NCBI RefSeq assembly: GCF_004135675.1 | Contig: NZ_QHLX01000001.1 | Coordinates: 310,001 to 374,000 of the forward strand | Length of the DNA stretch: 64,000 bases | Direction of reading: 5' to 3' | Source of the DNA: Marinitoga lauensis | GTDB taxonomy: Bacteria > Thermotogota > Thermotogae > Petrotogales > Petrotogaceae | Shown here: positions 8,965 through 55,355 of the stretch, one piece after another | Position numbering within the stretch: the first letter of the stretch is position 1 | Layout of the letters: every line of letters begins with the position of its first letter | Notes under the pieces: model-generated | The model's database searches: none | The model's input: only the letters and a program-made list of their open reading frames with translations | What the model was told of the DNA's origin: nothing | Position numbers and translations under genes: made by a program

Positions 8965-9378
8965 AGTATTTTGCAGTTCGGCGTTTCATAAATCAAATAT
9001 CACAAATCATGTAGTTTGCTAATGTAGTTACTTATACCTTTAAGTTTAATTGCTATATAATTTCTTTTTGAGCGCTCCGACTGTTTAACCTCAATTCTAT
9101 CAATAATTTGCGTTAAAAAATCTGCTATTTTTTCATGATCGTCGCTTTTTAAAATTTCAACTGATGCTTTTATCATATTTTCTACAACCTCTTCATTAAT
9201 ATTAATTACTTCTTCTTCGTGTTTCTTTAAACTATATTGCAAAAGTTTTATATCGTTACTTATATCTTTTATTCTATTCTTTATTTTTTCAGTATTCAAA
9301 CCCTGAGTTTGACACTATTATTATCAACAAAATTCTAAAAAGTAGAATTATTCAAAAAATAGCTATTGTTAACTTTTT
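8965..9378. repeat. ~415-bp target duplication of IS copy A, right copy
   Basis: Partner of 6636-7050. It includes the recombinase C-terminal codons (9000-9301, leftward) and the left end of IS copy B from 9302. This copy is the original one in continuity with IS B. Confidence 0.88.
9199..9301. repeat. 103-bp target duplication of IS copy B, left copy
   Basis: Identical to 11231-11333, which flanks the other end of IS B. Both are recombinase coding sequence (the coiled-coil region). Joining the recombinase at this duplication restores one open frame of about 512 codons, confirming insertion into the gene. Confidence 0.88.
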
Positions 9379-9432
9379 ATAAAAAGAGAAATTAGCCACA
9401 CACATCCTCCTTTTTGGCTTTTCATGCGTGTT

Positions 9433-11036
9433 TTAGGAGATTATTTTTTTAAATTCATCTAATTCCATCATTTTTTTCGGTTTTTCTATTTTTAATGTTT
9501 TTAATATGGCTTTTTGAAAATCGTTTAAATTGGCTCTTAATGCAAATAATTTGTCTTTTAATCTTATTTCAGAGTATTCCATTTTTTTTATAGCTTCTCT
9601 TATTTTTTCATGAGAGTATTCAATATTATTTTTTTCCAGTTCTAATTCTAATGTTCTTTGAATTATGTAAGATATGAAACTCATTACAATATGTCCTTTT
9701 ATTCTTTTCGGTGTCCAATGAAATACCGGTCTTGTTTCAAGATAATTTTTTAATGTTCTGAATGTTTCTTCTACTTTCCATAATGTATGATATTGTTCTA
9801 ATATTTCTTTTGGAGATAGTTTTGTGTTTGTTATTATTCCATAGTATCCATCGTATTTTTCATCATTTTCTATTTTTTCTATGTCCAATATATAATTTTG
9901 TTTGTTCTGTTCTTTTAAATATTTTTTCGCTCCTCTTTTACTTTTTGAATCTATATTTCCTTCTTCTAACATTTTTTTCGCTTTTTCTATTAATCGTAGT
10001 CTATCTGCTCTGTCTTTTTTGGCTCTTTCTTCTGAATATATTATGAGTAATCTTTTATTTTCATATTCTACTTCTCTATATTTTATTCCTTTTGCTATTT
10101 CTATGAATTCTCCTTCAAATATATTTACTTTTTTTAACTGTTTTATTGATTTTCCTACTATGAATTCATAATTAGAATTTTCTACTACTTCTATATTTTT
10201 TTACTCATCATTCCTCTATCTGCTACTACTATTACTTTTCCTAATTGATATTCTTTTTTCATTTTTTCTATTGAATCTTTAAATGTATGCCCTTCAAATG
10301 TATTTCCTGCATATATATCAAAACTAACTGGCATTCTATCCTGATCTATTGACATCCCTAATACTACTTGCGACTCATTAAATTTCTTATCCTTTGAATA
10401 TCCCATTTGTAATATTTCATTTGTTTGTTGTGTTTCAAACGCTAATGTTGTTACATCGTAAAATACTAAATCTACCGTTGTATTAAACAAACTTATCCTT
10501 TGATTATACATATGTTTTTCTATCGACTCTTTATTATCTGCTAATATATCCAATGTTCTGTATAACCAGTGCAACATTACATCTTTTTCTTCCAGGTCTT
10601 TTTCTTTTTTAACTTCCACTTTGTTATATCCAAAATACTCTAAATTATTAAATATTCCCAATTTACTCTTCGGTTCTACTATTCTATTCATCACCATTAT
10701 TTTTAACATTTCTTCTGCATTGTATTTTATTTCTTTATCCAGTCTTTCAAAATATCTTTTCATCTCATATCTTTCAAATATCTTATTTACTATTACTTTG
10801 GCTCCGTAATTTCTTCTTGCTATTTCTTCCATTAAATCATCTTCTATTTTTTCATATTCATCTATTTCAAATATTTTAAAAAGACTATCTACAAGTTTTG
10901 TTATATCTTTTTTACTATACTTATCTATATTTCCAAAATTTATTACTGTATGCTGTTTCACTTTTCCATTTTCTCTTTTGCTTTCCATTATCCTTAAATA
11001 TCTTTTTCCTTTCACTTTTGATATTTTAGGATACAT
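9433..11036 (-). pseudogene. IS1634-type transposase, copy B (one frameshift)
   Basis: Same family and catalytic motifs as copy A. Start ATG at 11036 (MYPKISKVKGKRYLRIME) behind AAAGGAG. The first ~80 and last ~50 residues differ from copy A, but the middle is almost identical. One break only, at the A7 run (10196-10202 on this strand): the first frame ends MMSKKI and the second continues NIEVVENSNYEF. A -1 slip on seven A would make a full protein, so this copy could be active by transcriptional slippage. Confidence 0.83.
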
Positions 11037-11047
11037 TTTAAAACATC

Positions 11048-11088
11048 TCCTTTCAGTGGTTGTCATATATATTATACCACCAAAAGGA
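11048..11088 (-). promoter_or_regulatory. IS B promoter inside an inverted repeat
   Basis: 11048-11060 pairs with 11076-11088 (11 of 13 positions). The leftward -10 TATAAT (11071-11076) is between the arms and the promoter-distal arm contains the AAAGGA of the ribosome site. The sequence is unrelated to IS A's inverted repeat but the arrangement is the same, which supports a shared anti-read-through function. Confidence 0.55.
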
Positions 11089-11199
11089 CTAATATATTAC
11101 TAATTATAGTTAATTCTCTGTAACAAAAGTTAGCCACACAATTTTTCGACTTCCTGAAAAATACACGCCTCAAACCCGCATTCTACCGTTCCATTTCCC

Positions 11200-12570
11200 T
11201 TAAAATCGCCAAATTGCTGTCAAAGGCAGGATATTAATTACTTCTTCTTCGTGTTTCTTTAAACTATATTGCAAAAGTTTTATATCGTTACTTATATCTT
11301 TTATTCTATTCTTTATTTTTTCAGTATTCAAACCAGCTTCTATTGCATCCATAAAACTTTCTTCTAATCTTTCTTTTCTCTTTTTCAACTTCGAAATTTC
11401 GTTTTTTATTTCATTAATTTTGGTTTTATTATTTTTATACTTAATAGAATTTATAGAATTGATTTTTTTTATTAAATCAGAAATTTCAATTTTTTCAAAT
11501 ACATCATTTAATAAAAAATCAATTACGAAACTTTCCACTTTTTCACGAGAAATAGAAATAAAATGATCATGTTTTTCATGATTTGTTATTTTCTTCTTCC
11601 AACTTGAACATACATATCTTGGGTACCTTCCACCAAATGCTATCATCTTTTCTCCACAAACTCCACAATATAATAAATTTTTTAATAAATATTTATGTTT
11701 TTTCTTTTTAACCCTGTTCCTCTTTTTCATTTTTTCTTGTACTTTATCCCATAATTCTTTTGATACTATTGCAGGAATAGCATTTTCTACTATTACAGCA
11801 TCATCTCTTTTTATATGAGAAGTTCTATGATTACCCCTTGCCCAAACATATGTACCTTTATATTTTGGATTGTGTAAAATATCATAGATTGTGCTATAAG
11901 ACCATTTTCCACCTTTTCTAGTTACAAAACCATGATTATTTAAATATTCTTCTATTTTTAAAGTTGAATAATCTTTTTCCGCTAATTCAAACATTAGTTT
12001 AACTACTTCAGCTTCTTTTTCATTTATAACATATTGTTTTCTAGGTATTTTCTTTACTCTTTCACCAAAGGAAATTTCTTCATATGTTTCTTCCACATCA
12101 TAGCCATATGGTGGAATACCTCCAAGAAAATAAGCTTTCTCTGCAGTAATTCTCACTTTAGTATTTATTTCATTTTTAAGATTCTTCAAATACCAATCAG
12201 CCACACTGGCCATAATATTAAAAATAAGATCACCAGATGCACCTGTTAAATCTTCTGATACAGAAAGCAAATCTACACCATATTGATTCAATTCTGCTTT
12301 ATACCAAGCAGCATCTTTTATATTTCTTGCAAATCTATCAATCTTATGGATAATAACAGCATCAAATTTTTTAGATTTAGCATCTCTAATCATCCTTTGA
12401 AATTCCGGTCTATCATCCGATTTTGCTGATCTTGCTCTATCAATATATTTTTCTACAATTTCATATCCGTTTTTTTCAGCATATTCTATTATAGCCCTTA
12501 ATTGTGCTTCAATAGAATCATCCGTTTGATTTTCACTTGAAAACCTTGCATATGCAGCAGCCTTTTTCAT
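11200..12570 (-). pseudogene. Large serine recombinase (phage integrase), truncated by IS B
   Basis: Integrase of the prophage. The N-terminal resolvase domain (about 1-150) has the catalytic Ser11 in YARFSS and conserved IHKIDRFARN; the recombinase domain (about 160-270) and a zinc ribbon (CGVCG near 315) follow, then a coiled coil. The native protein would be about 512 aa. IS B cuts it after residue 447, adding nine foreign residues (LPLTAIWRF). The lost C-terminal part carries the end of the coiled-coil region, which in serine integrases governs synapsis. Excision is therefore probably impaired. Confidence 0.9.
11231..11333. repeat. 103-bp target duplication of IS copy B, right copy
   Basis: Partner of 9199-9301; still in frame with the recombinase body. 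Confidence 0.88.
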
Positions 12571-12860: not shown

Positions 12861-12885
12861 AAAAAAATCCCGGAAATATCCGGGA
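12861..12885 (-). terminator. Terminator of the TAC operon
   Basis: 7-bp GC-rich stem (12868-12874 with 12879-12885) followed, on this strand, by seven T. It lies 8 bp after the SecB-like gene stop. Confidence 0.85.
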
Positions 12886-12892
12886 ATTGCCA

Positions 12893-13339
12893 TTATTTTA
12901 TGATGTTTTTTAAAGCTTTTTTTCTTTCTGCTTCTATTAAATCTGTTATATTTAACAAAGGTAAATAAATTGGTTGAACAAATCCAAATTGTGATGTAAT
13001 AGACACCATTTTTGCTCTTGCAATTTGAAAAAGATTAATTATTCCTGAACTAACAACTAAACTTCTAAAATCTTCTTCTTTCATTTTTGAATGACCAGTA
13101 AATTCACCCTCAATGAACATTTCAACCTTTAATAAATGTTTTCTTCCTTTTTTATAAATTAGCTTAATATTTAATCCCAAAATACAATTATAAGGATTAT
13201 CATCAATTTTTTCTTTAAAGTTTTGAAAGGCCTCAATTTTCAATTCTGGAGATAATGGTTCATTAATAACACTATCATCAAATTCAAATGAAAATTTCTT
13301 AATTCTTTCAGAGATTAATTGTATATATGATTTTTTCAT
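12893..13339 (-). CDS. SecB-like chaperone of a toxin-antitoxin-chaperone system
   Basis: 148 aa with SecB features: an opening IKKFSFE strand, the central hydrophobic strands (ILGLNIKLIYKKG), a VEMFIEGEFTG segment, and the family ending of LFQIARAK followed by FGFVQPIYLPLLNI. Third gene of a tight operon after a HigB-like toxin and an HTH antitoxin, the canonical TAC order. In known TAC systems the SecB-like chaperone binds a C-terminal tail of the antitoxin, protects it from proteolysis and so keeps the toxin silent. Not a general SecB candidate, because it is in a prophage. Confidence 0.75.
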   Translation of the reverse strand: MKKSYIQLISERIKKFSFEFDDSVINEPLSPELKIEAFQNFKEKIDDNPYNCILGLNIKLIYKKGRKHLLKVEMFIEGEFTGHSKMKEEDFRSLVVSSGIINLFQIARAKMVSITSQFGFVQPIYLPLLNITDLIEAERKKALKNIIK

Positions 13340-13350
13340 AATTTCACCTC

Positions 13351-13863
13351 TTAAGCTGCTGAACCTAGATTTTTTTGCAAATTAAATATTTTATATTCGT
13401 CTTCTTCTTTATTTTTTATTTTGATGTTATTTTTTTCAACTGAAAATTTCTTAATTTCTGTTGAAATTAACTCACTTATTTTTTCTTGAAATGTTTTATT
13501 TTCATTCTTGACGATTTTCTTTAGAGGATCTCTATATTCTTCAGGAATTATATAGGTATATTCACCATGTGGAGTAATTTTCATTTCTCCACCTAAAGCT
13601 TTAGTTACTTTTAATAAAAATTTTAGAGATGGATTTATACTTGCATTTTCTAATCTTGAAATTGCAGTTTGTTTGGTATTTATTTTTTTAGCTAATTCTT
13701 TTTGCGAAATTCTTTTTTTCATTCTCATTAAGGTTAATTCGCTTACTAAATCTATAAGTATATTTTCTAATTCTTCTTCTAACGATTCTGCTTTTAATTC
13801 AAATTTCTCAAACTTTCCTTCTTTAACCTTTTTTATTATTTCTTTATCAATATTTTTGCTCAT
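13351..13863 (-). CDS. HigA-like antitoxin with C-terminal extension
   Basis: XRE helix-turn-helix at about residues 45-95 (RISQKELAKKINTKQTAIS). An unusually long ~75-residue tail follows and ends KIFNLQKNLGSAA. In TAC antitoxins such a tail is the chaperone-addiction region. ATG 13863 follows AAGGAGTG; the GTG three codons earlier has no site. It starts 13 bp after the toxin stop and ends 12 bp before the chaperone. Likely represses its own operon through the palindrome at 14334-14357. Confidence 0.78.
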   Translation of the reverse strand: MSKNIDKEIIKKVKEGKFEKFELKAESLEEELENILIDLVSELTLMRMKKRISQKELAKKINTKQTAISRLENASINPSLKFLLKVTKALGGEMKITPHGEYTYIIPEEYRDPLKKIVKNENKTFQEKISELISTEIKKFSVEKNNIKIKNKEEDEYKIFNLQKNLGSAA

Positions 13864-13875
13864 AAATATCACTCC

Positions 13876-14310
13876 TTATTTTAAAGCATCAACTAAAATT
13901 TTCAAATTATTAAATGCTGAATCAATTTTTTTTGCTTCCTTGTCAGTTTTGAATTCTGCTTCTAAGATAATTACATTATTATTATTAGGATAATCTTTAA
14001 CAGGATAAAAAGTAAAATAAATTCTGAACACACCATTTTTGCTTTGCTGAGGGATCCTTAATTCATACAAAACAAAATCGTTATATTTGTCTATACGTGC
14101 GATTTTTTTATTATTATGTTTTTTTGAGTTTTCTTCATAAAGCGAAAATAAAATATATTCTCTTCCGCCTTTGTTTATATCTATTAGATTTTGCTTTAAT
14201 TTTTTATAAGTTTTACTTCCTTTCCTTTTAAAATCCTTTTCTATCAATTCTTTTATTCTGTTTTTATTTCCATTATCTTCAATAGGAAAATAATATAAAT
14301 ATTCAGCCAT
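13876..14310 (-). CDS. HigB/RelE-like toxin of the TAC operon
   Basis: 144 aa. The C-terminal half has the RelE/HigB pattern: a YELRIPQ strand, FRIYFTFYPV, VIILEAEFKT and the closing helix with KEAKKIDSA. Members are ribosome-dependent mRNA interferases. The N-terminal ~65 residues are longer than in most RelE toxins. First gene of the operon behind GGGGGT. An alternative is a different toxin fold with this strand order, but the neighbours make HigB-like by far the best reading. Confidence 0.72.
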   Translation of the reverse strand: MAEYLYYFPIEDNGNKNRIKELIEKDFKRKGSKTYKKLKQNLIDINKGGREYILFSLYEENSKKHNNKKIARIDKYNDFVLYELRIPQQSKNGVFRIYFTFYPVKDYPNNNNVIILEAEFKTDKEAKKIDSAFNNLKILVDALK

Positions 14311-14332
14311 AATAACCCCCTACTGCATTTTT

Positions 14333-14357
14333 ATTATATAACATATATGTTATATAA
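14333..14357 (-). promoter_or_regulatory. TAC promoter/operator
   Basis: 14334-14357 is a perfect 24-bp palindrome (centre ACATATATGT) overlapping the leftward -10 TATAAT at 14333-14338, 23 bp before the toxin start. This is where an autoregulating HTH antitoxin would bind. Confidence 0.65.
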
Positions 14358-15682: not shown

Positions 15683-15988
15683 TCAACTCCGTATATCAGA
15701 AAATAAAAATAACCAAAATTTACGTTTCTTTTTACCTATTTTCTTTGCTCCGGTTTTTGTTCGTGAATAAAATTCATCTCTTGTAATTCCCAAATTCTTA
15801 ATTGTATTTTTTATAATAAGCAACGGCACCGGATCTATATGAGTTTGATATACTATACCAACTTCTTTTTCTTTGATTTTTATTGTTAATATATTGTGAC
15901 CACCACGTGTTCTCTTTTCAACAACTTCAAAAGTATTCAAAATTTCTTCAAATTCTCGAAGAGACAATTGAGGATACTTTTTAGGCAT
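15683..15988 (-). CDS. HicA-like mRNA interferase toxin
   Basis: 101 aa from ATG 15988 (MPKKYPQLSLREFEEIL). The HicA double-stranded-RNA-binding-like fold is suggested by the RTRGGHNI segment, where His is the expected catalytic residue, and by the ending TIKNLGITRDEF. A basic, aromatic tail follows, longer than typical HicA (about 60-80 aa). It overlaps the end of the HicB-like gene. HicA toxins cut mRNA. Confidence 0.7.
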   Translation of the reverse strand: MPKKYPQLSLREFEEILNTFEVVEKRTRGGHNILTIKIKEKEVGIVYQTHIDPVPLLIIKNTIKNLGITRDEFYSRTKTGAKKIGKKKRKFWLFLFSDIRS

Positions 15989-16315
15989 GTAAAACACCCA
16001 TATGATTTCCAATATTATTTATTTTATTACTACTTTGTTTTGAAATCTTATTAGCCATGTGAGAAACTAACAACCCGTAAATAAACTGAATTCTTTCCAA
16101 CAAAGTATCTTTTCTTATAAAAGAATTTATTTTATTTCCATCATCTAAATCAAAAATTTCAGTTAAAGTTTTATCTAATTCATCAACTGCTTCATCAAGA
16201 GTTTTTCCGTATACCATAATAGTAGTATTTGTAATTCTAATATAATATAGTCCATCTTTTTATATACAATTACACCATCTTTTGAATTTTTGAATTTTAG
16301 TGCAAAATATACCAT
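15981..16315 (-). pseudogene. HicB-like antitoxin, one frameshift
   Basis: From ATG 16315 (GGGGTGAT site) the frame runs MVYFALKFKNSKDGVIVYKK; the second frame continues DGLYYIRITNTTIMVYGKTL. Together they give the HicB beta-strand core with the G-x-TLDEAVDEL helix. The break is at the five-T run 16257-16261 (one base short). About 111 aa when restored. An intact toxin beside a broken antitoxin would be lethal, so either slippage restores it, the toxin is silent, or the base is a read error. Confidence 0.65.
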
Positions 16316-17356: not shown

Positions 17357-17968
17357 TTATTCCCATACAACTTTACCAATAACTTTCCCTACGATAATTA
17401 ATTCTTCCCATTTTTCTTTAGGAATTACAATTGGTTCATATTTTGGATTTAAACTTATCAAATTAATGCTATTTTCGAATTGATAGAATTTTTTTATAAT
17501 TCCATCATCTCCATTTATTATAAATACTCCAATATCTCCATTTTCCAAGACATTTTGTTTCCTTACCAGAGCATAATCTCCATTATTATATGCAGGTTCC
17601 ATTGAATCTCCAACCACAATTAAACCAAAATCAACGTCTTTGTTTTGAGGTACAGGTAAATAATTTATTATGTTTTCATCAGCAAATATGCCATTTCCAG
17701 CGCTTACACTACCAACAATTGGAATAAATTTTGCAGGTATTACATTAGGCGGTAAATTGTCTTTACTTTTTCCTTCTTTTATTCCTAAAAGGTAATCGGT
17801 AGTTACATTAAAAAATTCAGCTATTACTTTAAGCATCTCAGGAGAAGGAGTAGCTCTACCGGTTTCATATGCAGAAATACTTTTTCTAGTTATATTTAAT
17901 TTTTTTGCTAATTCTTCCTGTGTTAAACCTAATTCCTGCCTTAACCTTTTTAATCTATCTTTAAGCAT
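17357..17968 (-). CDS. CI/LexA-like phage repressor with S24 domain
   Basis: Principal lysogeny repressor candidate (203 aa). HTH at about 14-35 (LTQEELAKKLNITRKSISAY). The C-terminal S24 domain has the cleavage pair A90-G91 in VGSVSAGNG, nucleophile Ser122 in GDSMEP and general-base Lys159, so RecA-stimulated self-cleavage and SOS induction are expected. Divergent from a Cro-like gene across a shared operator region. Confidence 0.9.
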   Translation of the reverse strand: MLKDRLKRLRQELGLTQEELAKKLNITRKSISAYETGRATPSPEMLKVIAEFFNVTTDYLLGIKEGKSKDNLPPNVIPAKFIPIVGSVSAGNGIFADENIINYLPVPQNKDVDFGLIVVGDSMEPAYNNGDYALVRKQNVLENGDIGVFIINGDDGIIKKFYQFENSINLISLNPKYEPIVIPKEKWEELIIVGKVIGKVVWE

Positions 17969-30231: not shown

Positions 30232-31406
30232 TTGAAAGATAAAGTTGAAAAAATGGGGCAAGTATTTACTCCTAATAACATTGTAAAAAAAATGGTTGAT
30301 TTAATTAAATATGGTAAAAATATTTTAGAGCCATCTGCTGGGAAGGTGCATTTTTAAAAGAACTTAAAAATAGATTTCAAAAAGATAATATTGTTTCGAT
30401 AGAATTAGATGAAAAATTGCATTAAAAAATAATTATAAAACAATAATTATGGATTTTTTTGATTATCCTATTTATAACAAGTTTGATACTATTATAGGTA
30501 ACCCACCATATGTAAAATATAAAAATATTTTGCCTAGCACCCAATTAAAACTGAAAAAATATAATTATTTATTTGATAACAGAACAAATCTATTTTTATA
30601 CTTTATTTATAAATCTTTTTTGCATTTAAAAGAAAAAGGCGAGATAATATTTATAGTACCTAGAGAACTATTTGATTTAACATCTGCTTTAAAGTTAAAT
30701 AGTTATCTTCATGAGAATGGTACTTTTACCCATATTTATACTTTTGGGATAAAAAAATATTCGGTAATGATTTTTCTCCAAATGTAATAGTATTTAGATA
30801 TGAAAAAAATAATATGTCTCATAAAACTTTATTTAATAATGAAGAAAGGTATCAATATTGTTCTAAAGGTTTCATTTATTTCGTTAAAGAAAAAAAATAT
30901 ACTATGCATTTAAGTGATATAGCTTATGTGAAAGTTGGAGGAGTAAGCGGGAATGACAAAATATTTGAACATGAAACTGGAAATATAGATGTTGTATGTT
31001 CTTATACCCAAAAAACCGGAAAAACAAAAAAAATGATATACAATATTATTAATGATCATTTGTTGAAACATAAAAATCAATTATTGAATAGAAGGATAAA
31101 AAAATTTGATGATAGTAATTGGTGGAAATGGGGAGAGATTTTTATGTTTCAAATGATCCTAGAATATATGTAAATGCAAAAACTAGAAATCATCAACCTT
31201 TTTTTATCCATAAATCGATATATTATGATGGTAGTATTTTGGGAATCTTCCCAAAAAATAAAAATATAGATATATATGAATTAAAAGATATGTTAAACAA
31301 ATTAGATTGGGAAGAGTTAGGGTTTGTATGTGATGGCAGATACATATTTACACAAAAAAAATTAGAAAATGTTATATTACCGGAATATTTTAAAAAATTT
31401 ATATAA
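30232..31406 (+). pseudogene. N6-adenine DNA methyltransferase of an R-M pair, four frameshifts
   Basis: Restored length 392 aa from TTG 30232 (AGGAGGG). The start MGQVFTPNNIVKKMVDL, SAM-binding motif EPSAGEGAFL, and catalytic NPPY in IIGNPPYVKY define an N6-adenine enzyme of the Eco57I/TaqI-like group. The C-terminal half would be the target-recognition domain. Breaks: 30340-30342, 30412-30416, 30751-30757, 31130-31133; all are one-base losses and the four together restore exact frame. A restriction enzyme candidate follows. Loss of the methylase alone would expose the host to its partner nuclease. Confidence 0.78.
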
Positions 31407-31487
31407 ATGAAATATATATTTAAATTATTTTGTTTATTTTTTTTAGAAATAATTGGTAGTTGAAGAATTATATATAAGGAGGGAAGT

Positions 31488-32147
31488 ATGGAAATTCTTG
31501 ATAATGTAGTTGAATTTTTAAAGGTTGAATTTTTAAAGAATGAAAAACTAAAGTCTTTAGTTAGTAGTGGACGTGACGGTAGGTTTCGCTCTGAGGAAGT
31601 TATTGAAGAAAGTGTAAAATTGTTAAAAAATAAATTGACACATTTTCCTAATTGTGAGAATTATTCTGTGGAATATCCCACAAAAAAAGATGATGGAAGT
31701 TTTAACCCTAGAGAATGGTATTCTGTTAAAATAAATGACTTATATATTAGTATTAAGACTTCATTTTTAAAATCAGCAGATAATGTAAATTCGAAAAAAG
31801 GATTTTATTATGCATTAACTGGTCAAATTCCCGAATCTGATAAATGGAATGAATTTCACAAATCATTATTTGAAAATCTTGGTAAAGATAAAGAAAAAGA
31901 TTTTTATTTTATTATTATCGATAAATCTGATGCAAATAATATTTTTTGGACATCGTTCAAAAGGTTAAGAAAAGTTCATCCAAATGGGAACAATCTACCC
32001 TTTCAAGTTAACTGGAGAGAAAATTTAAAATTAATAGAAAGAACACATGAAGAAGCAGTAGACTTTTTATTATATTATTACGAAAAATCATTGATAAAAT
32101 CAACAGTTCCATTTGCATCTTTTGTTACTTATAAAGAAAAAAGTTGA
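31488..32147 (+). CDS. Putative type II restriction endonuclease (219 aa)
   Basis: Intact. Begins MEILDNVVEFLKVEFLKNEK behind AGGAGGG. The stretch VKINDLYISIKTS is a plausible PD-(D/E)XK core (Asp, then IxIK) with Ser in place of the usual Glu. The SGRDGRFRSEEVIEES segment resembles the N-terminal part of several type II enzymes. Called mainly from its place 81 bp after a DNA methylase. Would protect the lysogen from other phages. Confidence 0.55.
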   Translation: MEILDNVVEFLKVEFLKNEKLKSLVSSGRDGRFRSEEVIEESVKLLKNKLTHFPNCENYSVEYPTKKDDGSFNPREWYSVKINDLYISIKTSFLKSADNVNSKKGFYYALTGQIPESDKWNEFHKSLFENLGKDKEKDFYFIIIDKSDANNIFWTSFKRLRKVHPNGNNLPFQVNWRENLKLIERTHEEAVDFLLYYYEKSLIKSTVPFASFVTYKEKS

Positions 32148-54235: not shown

Positions 54236-54336
54236 CATTCCCTCGATTTGTAAGAAAAAATGCTTCACATTTTTATAAAAAAATAGTATAATAATAATAC
54301 AATTAATACCGATAAATGTATTGAGGGGTGAAAAAA

Positions 54337-54870
54337 ATGAATAAAAAAGAAAAACAGATAAATGCTATTATATATATCTTAGAAAAATATCCTAATATTG
54401 GGCGAACCAAATTAATGAAAGCAATATTTTTTATGGATTTAATATGGTATAACAAATATAAAGAAACTATTTTTGAGGATAATTATATCAGAATGCCTAA
54501 TGGTCCAGTTCCATTAACCGCTTATAAATTAACAGATATTAAAAAGGCTAATCCATATATAAAAATTAAATTACAAAAAACAACTTCTAAACATAAAAAA
54601 TATGATTTTTTCCCATTGATTAAAGCTAATATGGAAGATTTCTCTCAAGAAATGATTGATATTTTGGAAAAAATTATTTCTTTTTTGCAGAAATATGCTG
54701 CTACAAGCATATCTGAATTTACGCATAATTTTCGTTTATGGTCCTCTTTAGAAGATGGGGAAAAAATTCCTAAAGAACTTTTTAATCTTGACGAATATGA
54801 AATAAATCTTTTAAATGCTAAAAATGCATTAAAAAAGCAAAAAAATTTTCAATTCAAGCACATGAAATAA
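54337..54870 (+). CDS. Panacea-domain (PanA/SocA-like) antitoxin
   Basis: 177 aa from ATG 54337 (GAGGGGTG). The family pattern is clear: INAIIYILEKYPNIGRTKLM, a MDLIWYNKYKE segment, and YIRMPNGPVPLTAYKL. Panacea domains serve as antitoxins to many unrelated toxins and are common on phages. The next gene is MazF-like, giving a pair. Confidence 0.82.
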   Translation: MNKKEKQINAIIYILEKYPNIGRTKLMKAIFFMDLIWYNKYKETIFEDNYIRMPNGPVPLTAYKLTDIKKANPYIKIKLQKTTSKHKKYDFFPLIKANMEDFSQEMIDILEKIISFLQKYAATSISEFTHNFRLWSSLEDGEKIPKELFNLDEYEINLLNAKNALKKQKNFQFKHMK

Positions 54871-54948
54871 AAGGGAGTTACCAAACGAAAAAATTTCCAA
54901 TGAAATTGCGAATACGCAATCTTATTTGTTAAATAATTGAGGTTGATT

Positions 54949-55355
54949 ATGAAAAAGAGTAATGGATCATATGGATTTGGACAAGTATATTTTATGAATT
55001 TAACTCCCATACAAGTCCATCTAAAACTACTATGAAAAATGATCACAGAGTAATTATTGTTCAAGATGATAAAATATTCTCTGCCTCATACTCCAATATA
55101 ATAGTAATTCCAACGACATCTTTTGAGCCTAAGAAACATTGGGATTCTCAAAATAATAGATTAAAATATGTAACTCATCATTTATTGCATAAAAGTCAAT
55201 ATTCTGAATTAAAAAGAGATACAATAGTAAAATGTGAACAACTTTTTACTATTGAAAAAAGATTTTTAGATAGATACTTATTTACTTTAAATAACGATGA
55301 TATGGAAGAAATATTAAAGCGAATAGCTTTAGTGTTAGGTTTTAATAGAATATAA
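54949..55355 (+). pseudogene. MazF/PemK-like toxin, one frameshift
   Basis: Restored 135 aa: MKKSNGSYGFGQVYFYEFNS, HRVIIVQDD, IIVIPTTS, DTIVKCEQLFTIEKRFL. These are the MazF strand pattern (GQVY..., NR/HRP-VIIVQ, VP-T). The break is the T4 run 54990-54993, one T short. mRNA endonuclease expected, neutralised by the Panacea protein upstream. Confidence 0.7.

Follow-up and report, generated by a model that had tools for sequence, protein, structure and literature searches.

A minus-strand operon in the window (the whole 64,000-nucleotide stretch of DNA analyzed here) is probably a toxin-antitoxin-chaperone (TAC) system of the HigBAC type, which a Marinitoga prophage carries in its lysogeny region as cargo and which would act by the four-step mechanism proposed below. 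Spanning positions 12868-14357, it shows the sequential arrangement of an operator-promoter region, a toxin, an XRE antitoxin, a SecB-like chaperone and a terminator. Fold, synteny, relatives and the conservation of the operator support its identification as a TAC, which an earlier note made from the DNA letters had proposed. The operon is unannotated here and adds to the known HigBAC-type TACs.

Operon architecture

The operon has the gene order required of a TAC, toxin, antitoxin and SecB-like chaperone, as the earlier note had recognized. The toxin (13876-14310, minus strand, 144 aa) is predicted to adopt a HigB/Gp49-like RelE fold; the antitoxin (13351-13863, minus strand, 170 aa) combines an XRE HTH with a second module and a candidate chaperone-addiction (ChAD) tail ending in -SAA; the chaperone (12893-13339, minus strand) has 148 aa. 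For the antitoxin we took the ATG behind GGAG as the start; the GTG start of the ORF list, at 13872, overlaps the ribosome-binding site. A purine-rich ribosome-binding site precedes each of the three genes, and the gaps between them measure 12 bp (toxin to antitoxin) and 11 bp (antitoxin to chaperone), so that the uniform 12-bp spacing claimed earlier holds for the first gap but not for the second.

The promoter is overlaid, as had been claimed, by a perfect 24-bp palindrome, TTATATAACATATATGTTATATAA (14334-14357), the putative operator of the antitoxin HTH; a first-order Markov control yields 0.03 such palindromes per 64 kb. With up to three mismatches allowed, its 20-mer core has one site in the window against 0.06 expected. 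A -10-like TATAAT (14333-14338, minus strand), accompanied by a weak -35, overlaps the right arm of the palindrome and is conserved in the relatives G004, G069, G075 and UViG_2531839125. The terminator previously seen behind the operon is an intrinsic one at 12868-12885 (minus strand), one being found where 0.3 are expected.

Prophage setting

Since the structural region of the element is 83-88% identical in its aligned parts to MPV1, MCV2 and MCV1, we identify it as a Marinitoga prophage; this agrees with the location first suggested for the operon, which belongs to the lysogeny region. More precisely, the operon occupies a cargo slot of this MCV/MPV1-like prophage between a large serine integrase (5' part at 11200-12570, minus strand; PF00239, PF07508) and a CI-type repressor (17357-17968, minus strand). 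The same integrase-CI slot holds TACs in three other temperate phages, namely the G004 prophage, whose integrase is 97% identical to that of MCV2, as well as MCV1 and UViG_2531839125.

The integrase is interrupted by an IS element (9303-11230) that lies between two perfect direct repeats of 104 bp (9199-9302 and 11231-11334; 9199-11334 in all), presumably IS1634-like in view of the long target duplications of that family; its transposase is likewise split into two ORFs. As the IS interrupts the integrase, excision is doubtful and the prophage may no longer be mobile. The ends of the prophage yielded no convincing att core, the longest direct repeat there being 10 bp. Elsewhere in the window, a SocA/Panacea antitoxin (PF13274, 1.1e-17) and, behind it, a 107-aa protein judged MazF/PemK-like by eye may form a PanAT pair (54331-55355); DNA methyltransferase-like fragments (NPPYVKYKN) adjoin a 219-aa protein that matches no Pfam family, perhaps the remains of a restriction-modification system (30449-32147); and a small protein at 15683-16012 appears HicA-like by eye, with no Pfam match at E<=10.

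The toxin

The assignments of both toxin and chaperone run through folds and relatives, with AlphaFold2 (AF2) models built from alignments of only 3-4 sequences. The toxin by itself has no Pfam match at the cut-off, while its relatives match PF05973 (Gp49; best 2.8e-5). Its AF2 model (alignment of 4 sequences, pLDDT 81) gave no significant Foldseek match; the HigB result rests on a second look with VIA-align, in which the leading matches are Streptococcus pneumoniae HigB (Z 11.8), the TAC toxin HigB1 of Mycobacterium tuberculosis in its ribosome-bound structure (Z 10.4), and RelE (Z 8.2), and the first twenty rows are all toxins of the HigB/RelE superfamily. The earlier description of the toxin as HigB-like is thus supported by the best fold matches of the model, and the protein is predicted to belong to the HigB/Gp49 RelE-fold family.

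The residues E83-x-R85 and R96, which do not vary across the family alignment, follow the pattern of E66-x-R68 and R77 in the active site of the TAC toxin HigB1 (PMC9098466); the register of the catalytic lysine (K121 versus K95 of HigB1) cannot be fixed from sequence alone. All eight of the closest toxin relatives (E<1e-37) precede an antitoxin and a chaperone gene, broken in G055. A scan of genome contigs with the toxins returned only two loci.

The SecB-like chaperone

Taken singly, the 148-aa chaperone matches PADLOC PD-T4-9_C (E=6e-7) and NCBIfam SecB (6e-4), with no Pfam family reaching the cut-off; at the level of its family (A2), 8 of 15 members match Pfam SecB (PF02556; best 8e-8). 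A phmmer search against PDB sequences returned no match. Its AF2 model (alignment of 3 sequences, pLDDT 80.6) recovered 23 Foldseek hits at E<=0.001, comprising 19 chains of SecB or Rv1957 and four streptococcal chains of unknown function, with Haemophilus influenzae SecB as the top match (SecB E=4e-7; Rv1957 E=2e-6). VIA-align concurs (SecB Z 13.2; Rv1957 Z 10.1). The predicted model therefore has a SecB fold, as the name given in the earlier note implied; that note had held that a structure prediction lacking this fold would count against the TAC reading, and the prediction recovered the fold.

With the PF02556 profile no second SecB was detected in the host assembly. A solitary export SecB was considered for this gene and rejected, as it is the third gene of a toxin-antitoxin operon and the only SecB match in the assembly. 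Two scans of viral contigs with other chaperones gave no match.

The antitoxin and its tail

The antitoxin XRE HTH is recognized by HTH_3 (E=1.2e-11), in keeping with the HTH antitoxin first noted. A tail of about 75 extra residues had been claimed: 78 residues do follow the HTH anchor, but only ~15-30 of these appear to be extra, because five of six chaperone-free homologues (L070, L073, L074a, L074b and L075) already have 52-63. The sixth (L069) is an exception with 90; one chaperone-free homologue with a long antitoxin tail belongs to G047, a genome 79% complete. Thermosipho-type TAC antitoxins have 40-44 residues after the HTH. From these comparisons, the candidate ChAD would be short, about the last 15-30 residues of the antitoxin.

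The -SAA C-terminus recalls the LAA end of CmdA, a ClpXP signal (PMC11618068). Of 19 TAC antitoxins, 5 end in -AA, compared with 2 of 341 background ORFs; this comparison is indicative, the 19 tails having been compiled by hand and including related systems. The pair EEDEYKIF/ENEEYKFF, considered as a ChAD motif common to the antitoxins of the window and MCV1, was rejected on a shuffle test (p=0.057, not significant). The window tail compared with the homologous Thermosipho-type tail of G069 gave p=0.005, which, as one of 14 comparisons, is a hint only.

Two further HigBA-like pairs with long antitoxin tails, in which the HMM detected no chaperone, are each overlapped by a downstream gene for a divergent protein of about 150 residues (147-152 aa; L077 2371-2814 and L076 2413-2871). 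One of these proteins has a weak Pfam SecB match (E=0.0075, below the cut-off) and the other none.

Operator conservation and selection

The 20-bp palindrome core occurs exactly in 4 of 103 Thermotogota genomes, at a single site in each and always upstream of a toxin of the window-type lineage, whereas the reversed pattern gave 0 in the same genomes. Likewise, a 23-mer of the palindrome was recovered from three of 2.9 million viral contigs, all of them TAC loci with this toxin lineage, and the operator of G066 retains 21 of the 24 bases. The toxins at these conserved operators are only ~43-69% identical to the window toxin and the core is nevertheless exact, so that selection on the site itself is likely. 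At the level of sequence, the XRE-HTH antitoxin is thus matched by a conserved palindromic putative operator at the promoter of the kind expected of a TAC, which points to autoregulation as the simplest reading. Judged from dN/dS against the G004 homologue (toxin 0.21, antitoxin 0.35, chaperone 0.14), purifying selection acts on each of the three genes.

Comparison with known systems

The Escherichia coli HigBAC system (HigB, HigA and the SecB-like HigC; Mets et al. 2024, cited through PMC11980606) resembles the window operon in its RelE-fold HigB-type toxin, HTH antitoxin and SecB-like chaperone, whereas the window system is remote in sequence and resides in the prophage of a thermophile. M. 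tuberculosis HigBA1-SecB(TA) (Rv1955-1957) shares the operon order, toxin fold (Z 10.4, 20% identity) and chaperone fold (Z 10.1, 14% identity); in contrast, the window system has a different candidate ChAD sequence, is prophage-borne and displays a conserved AT-rich palindrome. With CmdTAC (PD-T4-9) it has in common the SecB-like chaperone (PD-T4-9_C, as above) and an antitoxin ending in AA. However, CmdT is an ADP-ribosyltransferase, and an identity with CmdTAC was rejected since the window toxin model matches HigB/RelE. A separate, CmdTAC-like locus is seen in another genome of the same genus (G003; L024 650-1866, CYHGTSKENAEKI), with a chaperone matching PD-T4-9_C (6e-10), a small AA-ending antitoxin, and a toxin in two frames that looks ADP-ribosyltransferase-like by eye, the toxin fragment having no Pfam match. 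A literature search, with subscription papers mostly outside its coverage, found no paper linking a TAC to Thermotogota or these phages.

Relatives and a possible partner exchange in MCV1

Occurrence is patchy (29/103 Thermotogota), and the chaperone family lies behind at least three kinds of toxin. Relatives of the operon occur in chromosomes with no phage genes nearby, for example in G069, G066 and G075, as do family members in G008, G009, G012 and G017; those of G069 and G075 adjoin AAA/OLD- and SMC-like genes, as read from the sequence.

In MCV1, an unannotated TAC locus (UF08_51-53; L057, KP836355.1, 35737-37213) occupies the same slot beside the integrase. Its chaperone (UF08_51) is 64% identical to that of the window, whereas its toxin is PF15781 ParE-like (1.4e-10) and its antitoxin a non-XRE HTH protein unrelated to the window antitoxin. 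The PF15781 toxin type is also paired with the window chaperone family in G008, G015, G030 and G067, and such toxins are still undescribed in the literature (PMC11980606). Unrelated toxin-antitoxin pairs over homologous chaperones are known in principle, as HigBA, HicAB and MqsRA (PMC5105189) as well as CmdTA (PMC9519451) have been reported with SecB-like chaperones. We tentatively raise the possibility, with rather less than even confidence, that the integrase-CI region of these thermophile phages works as a swap slot: toxin-antitoxin pairs (Gp49/XRE here, PF15781 ParE-like with another HTH in MCV1) would replace one another there, with a single SecB-like sensor lineage staying in place. On this view the sensor would respond to the structural proteins of competing phages but not to those of its carrier, and systems of the PF15781 type would form a TAC class without a description in the literature found.

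Mechanistic interpretation and alternative functions

The computed support covers operon anatomy, folds, operator conservation, selection and prophage location; of the proposed mechanism, the second to fourth steps are modeled on the E. coli and M. tuberculosis relatives. In the first step, the XRE antitoxin together with the toxin would repress the operon by binding to the palindrome that overlaps the -10 element. The short C-terminal tail of the antitoxin would then need the SecB-like chaperone for folding and for protection from ClpXP. Upon infection, a phage protein may occupy the chaperone, resulting in loss of the antitoxin, and the freed HigB-fold RNase would cut mRNA at the ribosome and stop phage production. 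Precedents for such triggers are the lambda major tail protein, which activates E. coli HigBAC (PMC11980606), and the T4 capsid protein in the case of CmdTAC (PMC11618068).

By this analogy, abortive-infection defense of the lysogen is the most likely function of the operon. Defense directed against other phages is plausible, as HigBAC, MqsRAC and CmdTAC of E. coli offer analogies and the operon sits in a prophage cargo slot. The main rival is prophage maintenance by addiction, wherein the TAC would kill or arrest cells that lose the prophage, antitoxin and chaperone decaying faster than the toxin. The position in the lysogeny region, which in several temperate phages adjoins integrase and CI, and the unstable type of the antitoxin C-terminus would fit such a role, but the chromosomal relatives without surrounding phage genes and the linkage of E. 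coli TACs to phage defense in the literature (PMC9519451, PMC11980606) speak against it, and we regard it as improbable.

Slightly less probable again is a growth regulator responding to stress, in which titration of the chaperone would signal general proteotoxic or export stress, as proposed for the M. tuberculosis TAC: the host is a thermophile with no other SecB detected at PF02556, and the SecB fold binds many clients, yet the patchy occurrence and the repeated phage neighborhoods fit mobile defense better. It is very improbable that the chaperone has its role in phage morphogenesis or export and stands by chance beside an ordinary, chaperone-independent HigBA pair; the shortness of the antitoxin tail could be taken that way, but the gene order among the closest toxin relatives and the recurrence of the chaperone family behind several toxin kinds argue otherwise.

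Biological significance

The operon adds prophage-borne HigBAC-type TACs for thermophiles, which lack annotation even in MCV1, a sequenced phage. Together with the MCV1 locus it forms a natural pair, with chaperones 64% identical and unrelated toxin-antitoxin modules, which could serve to separate sensing by the chaperone from the action of the toxin. The same pair raises the question of how an induced temperate phage keeps from setting off the TAC that it carries.
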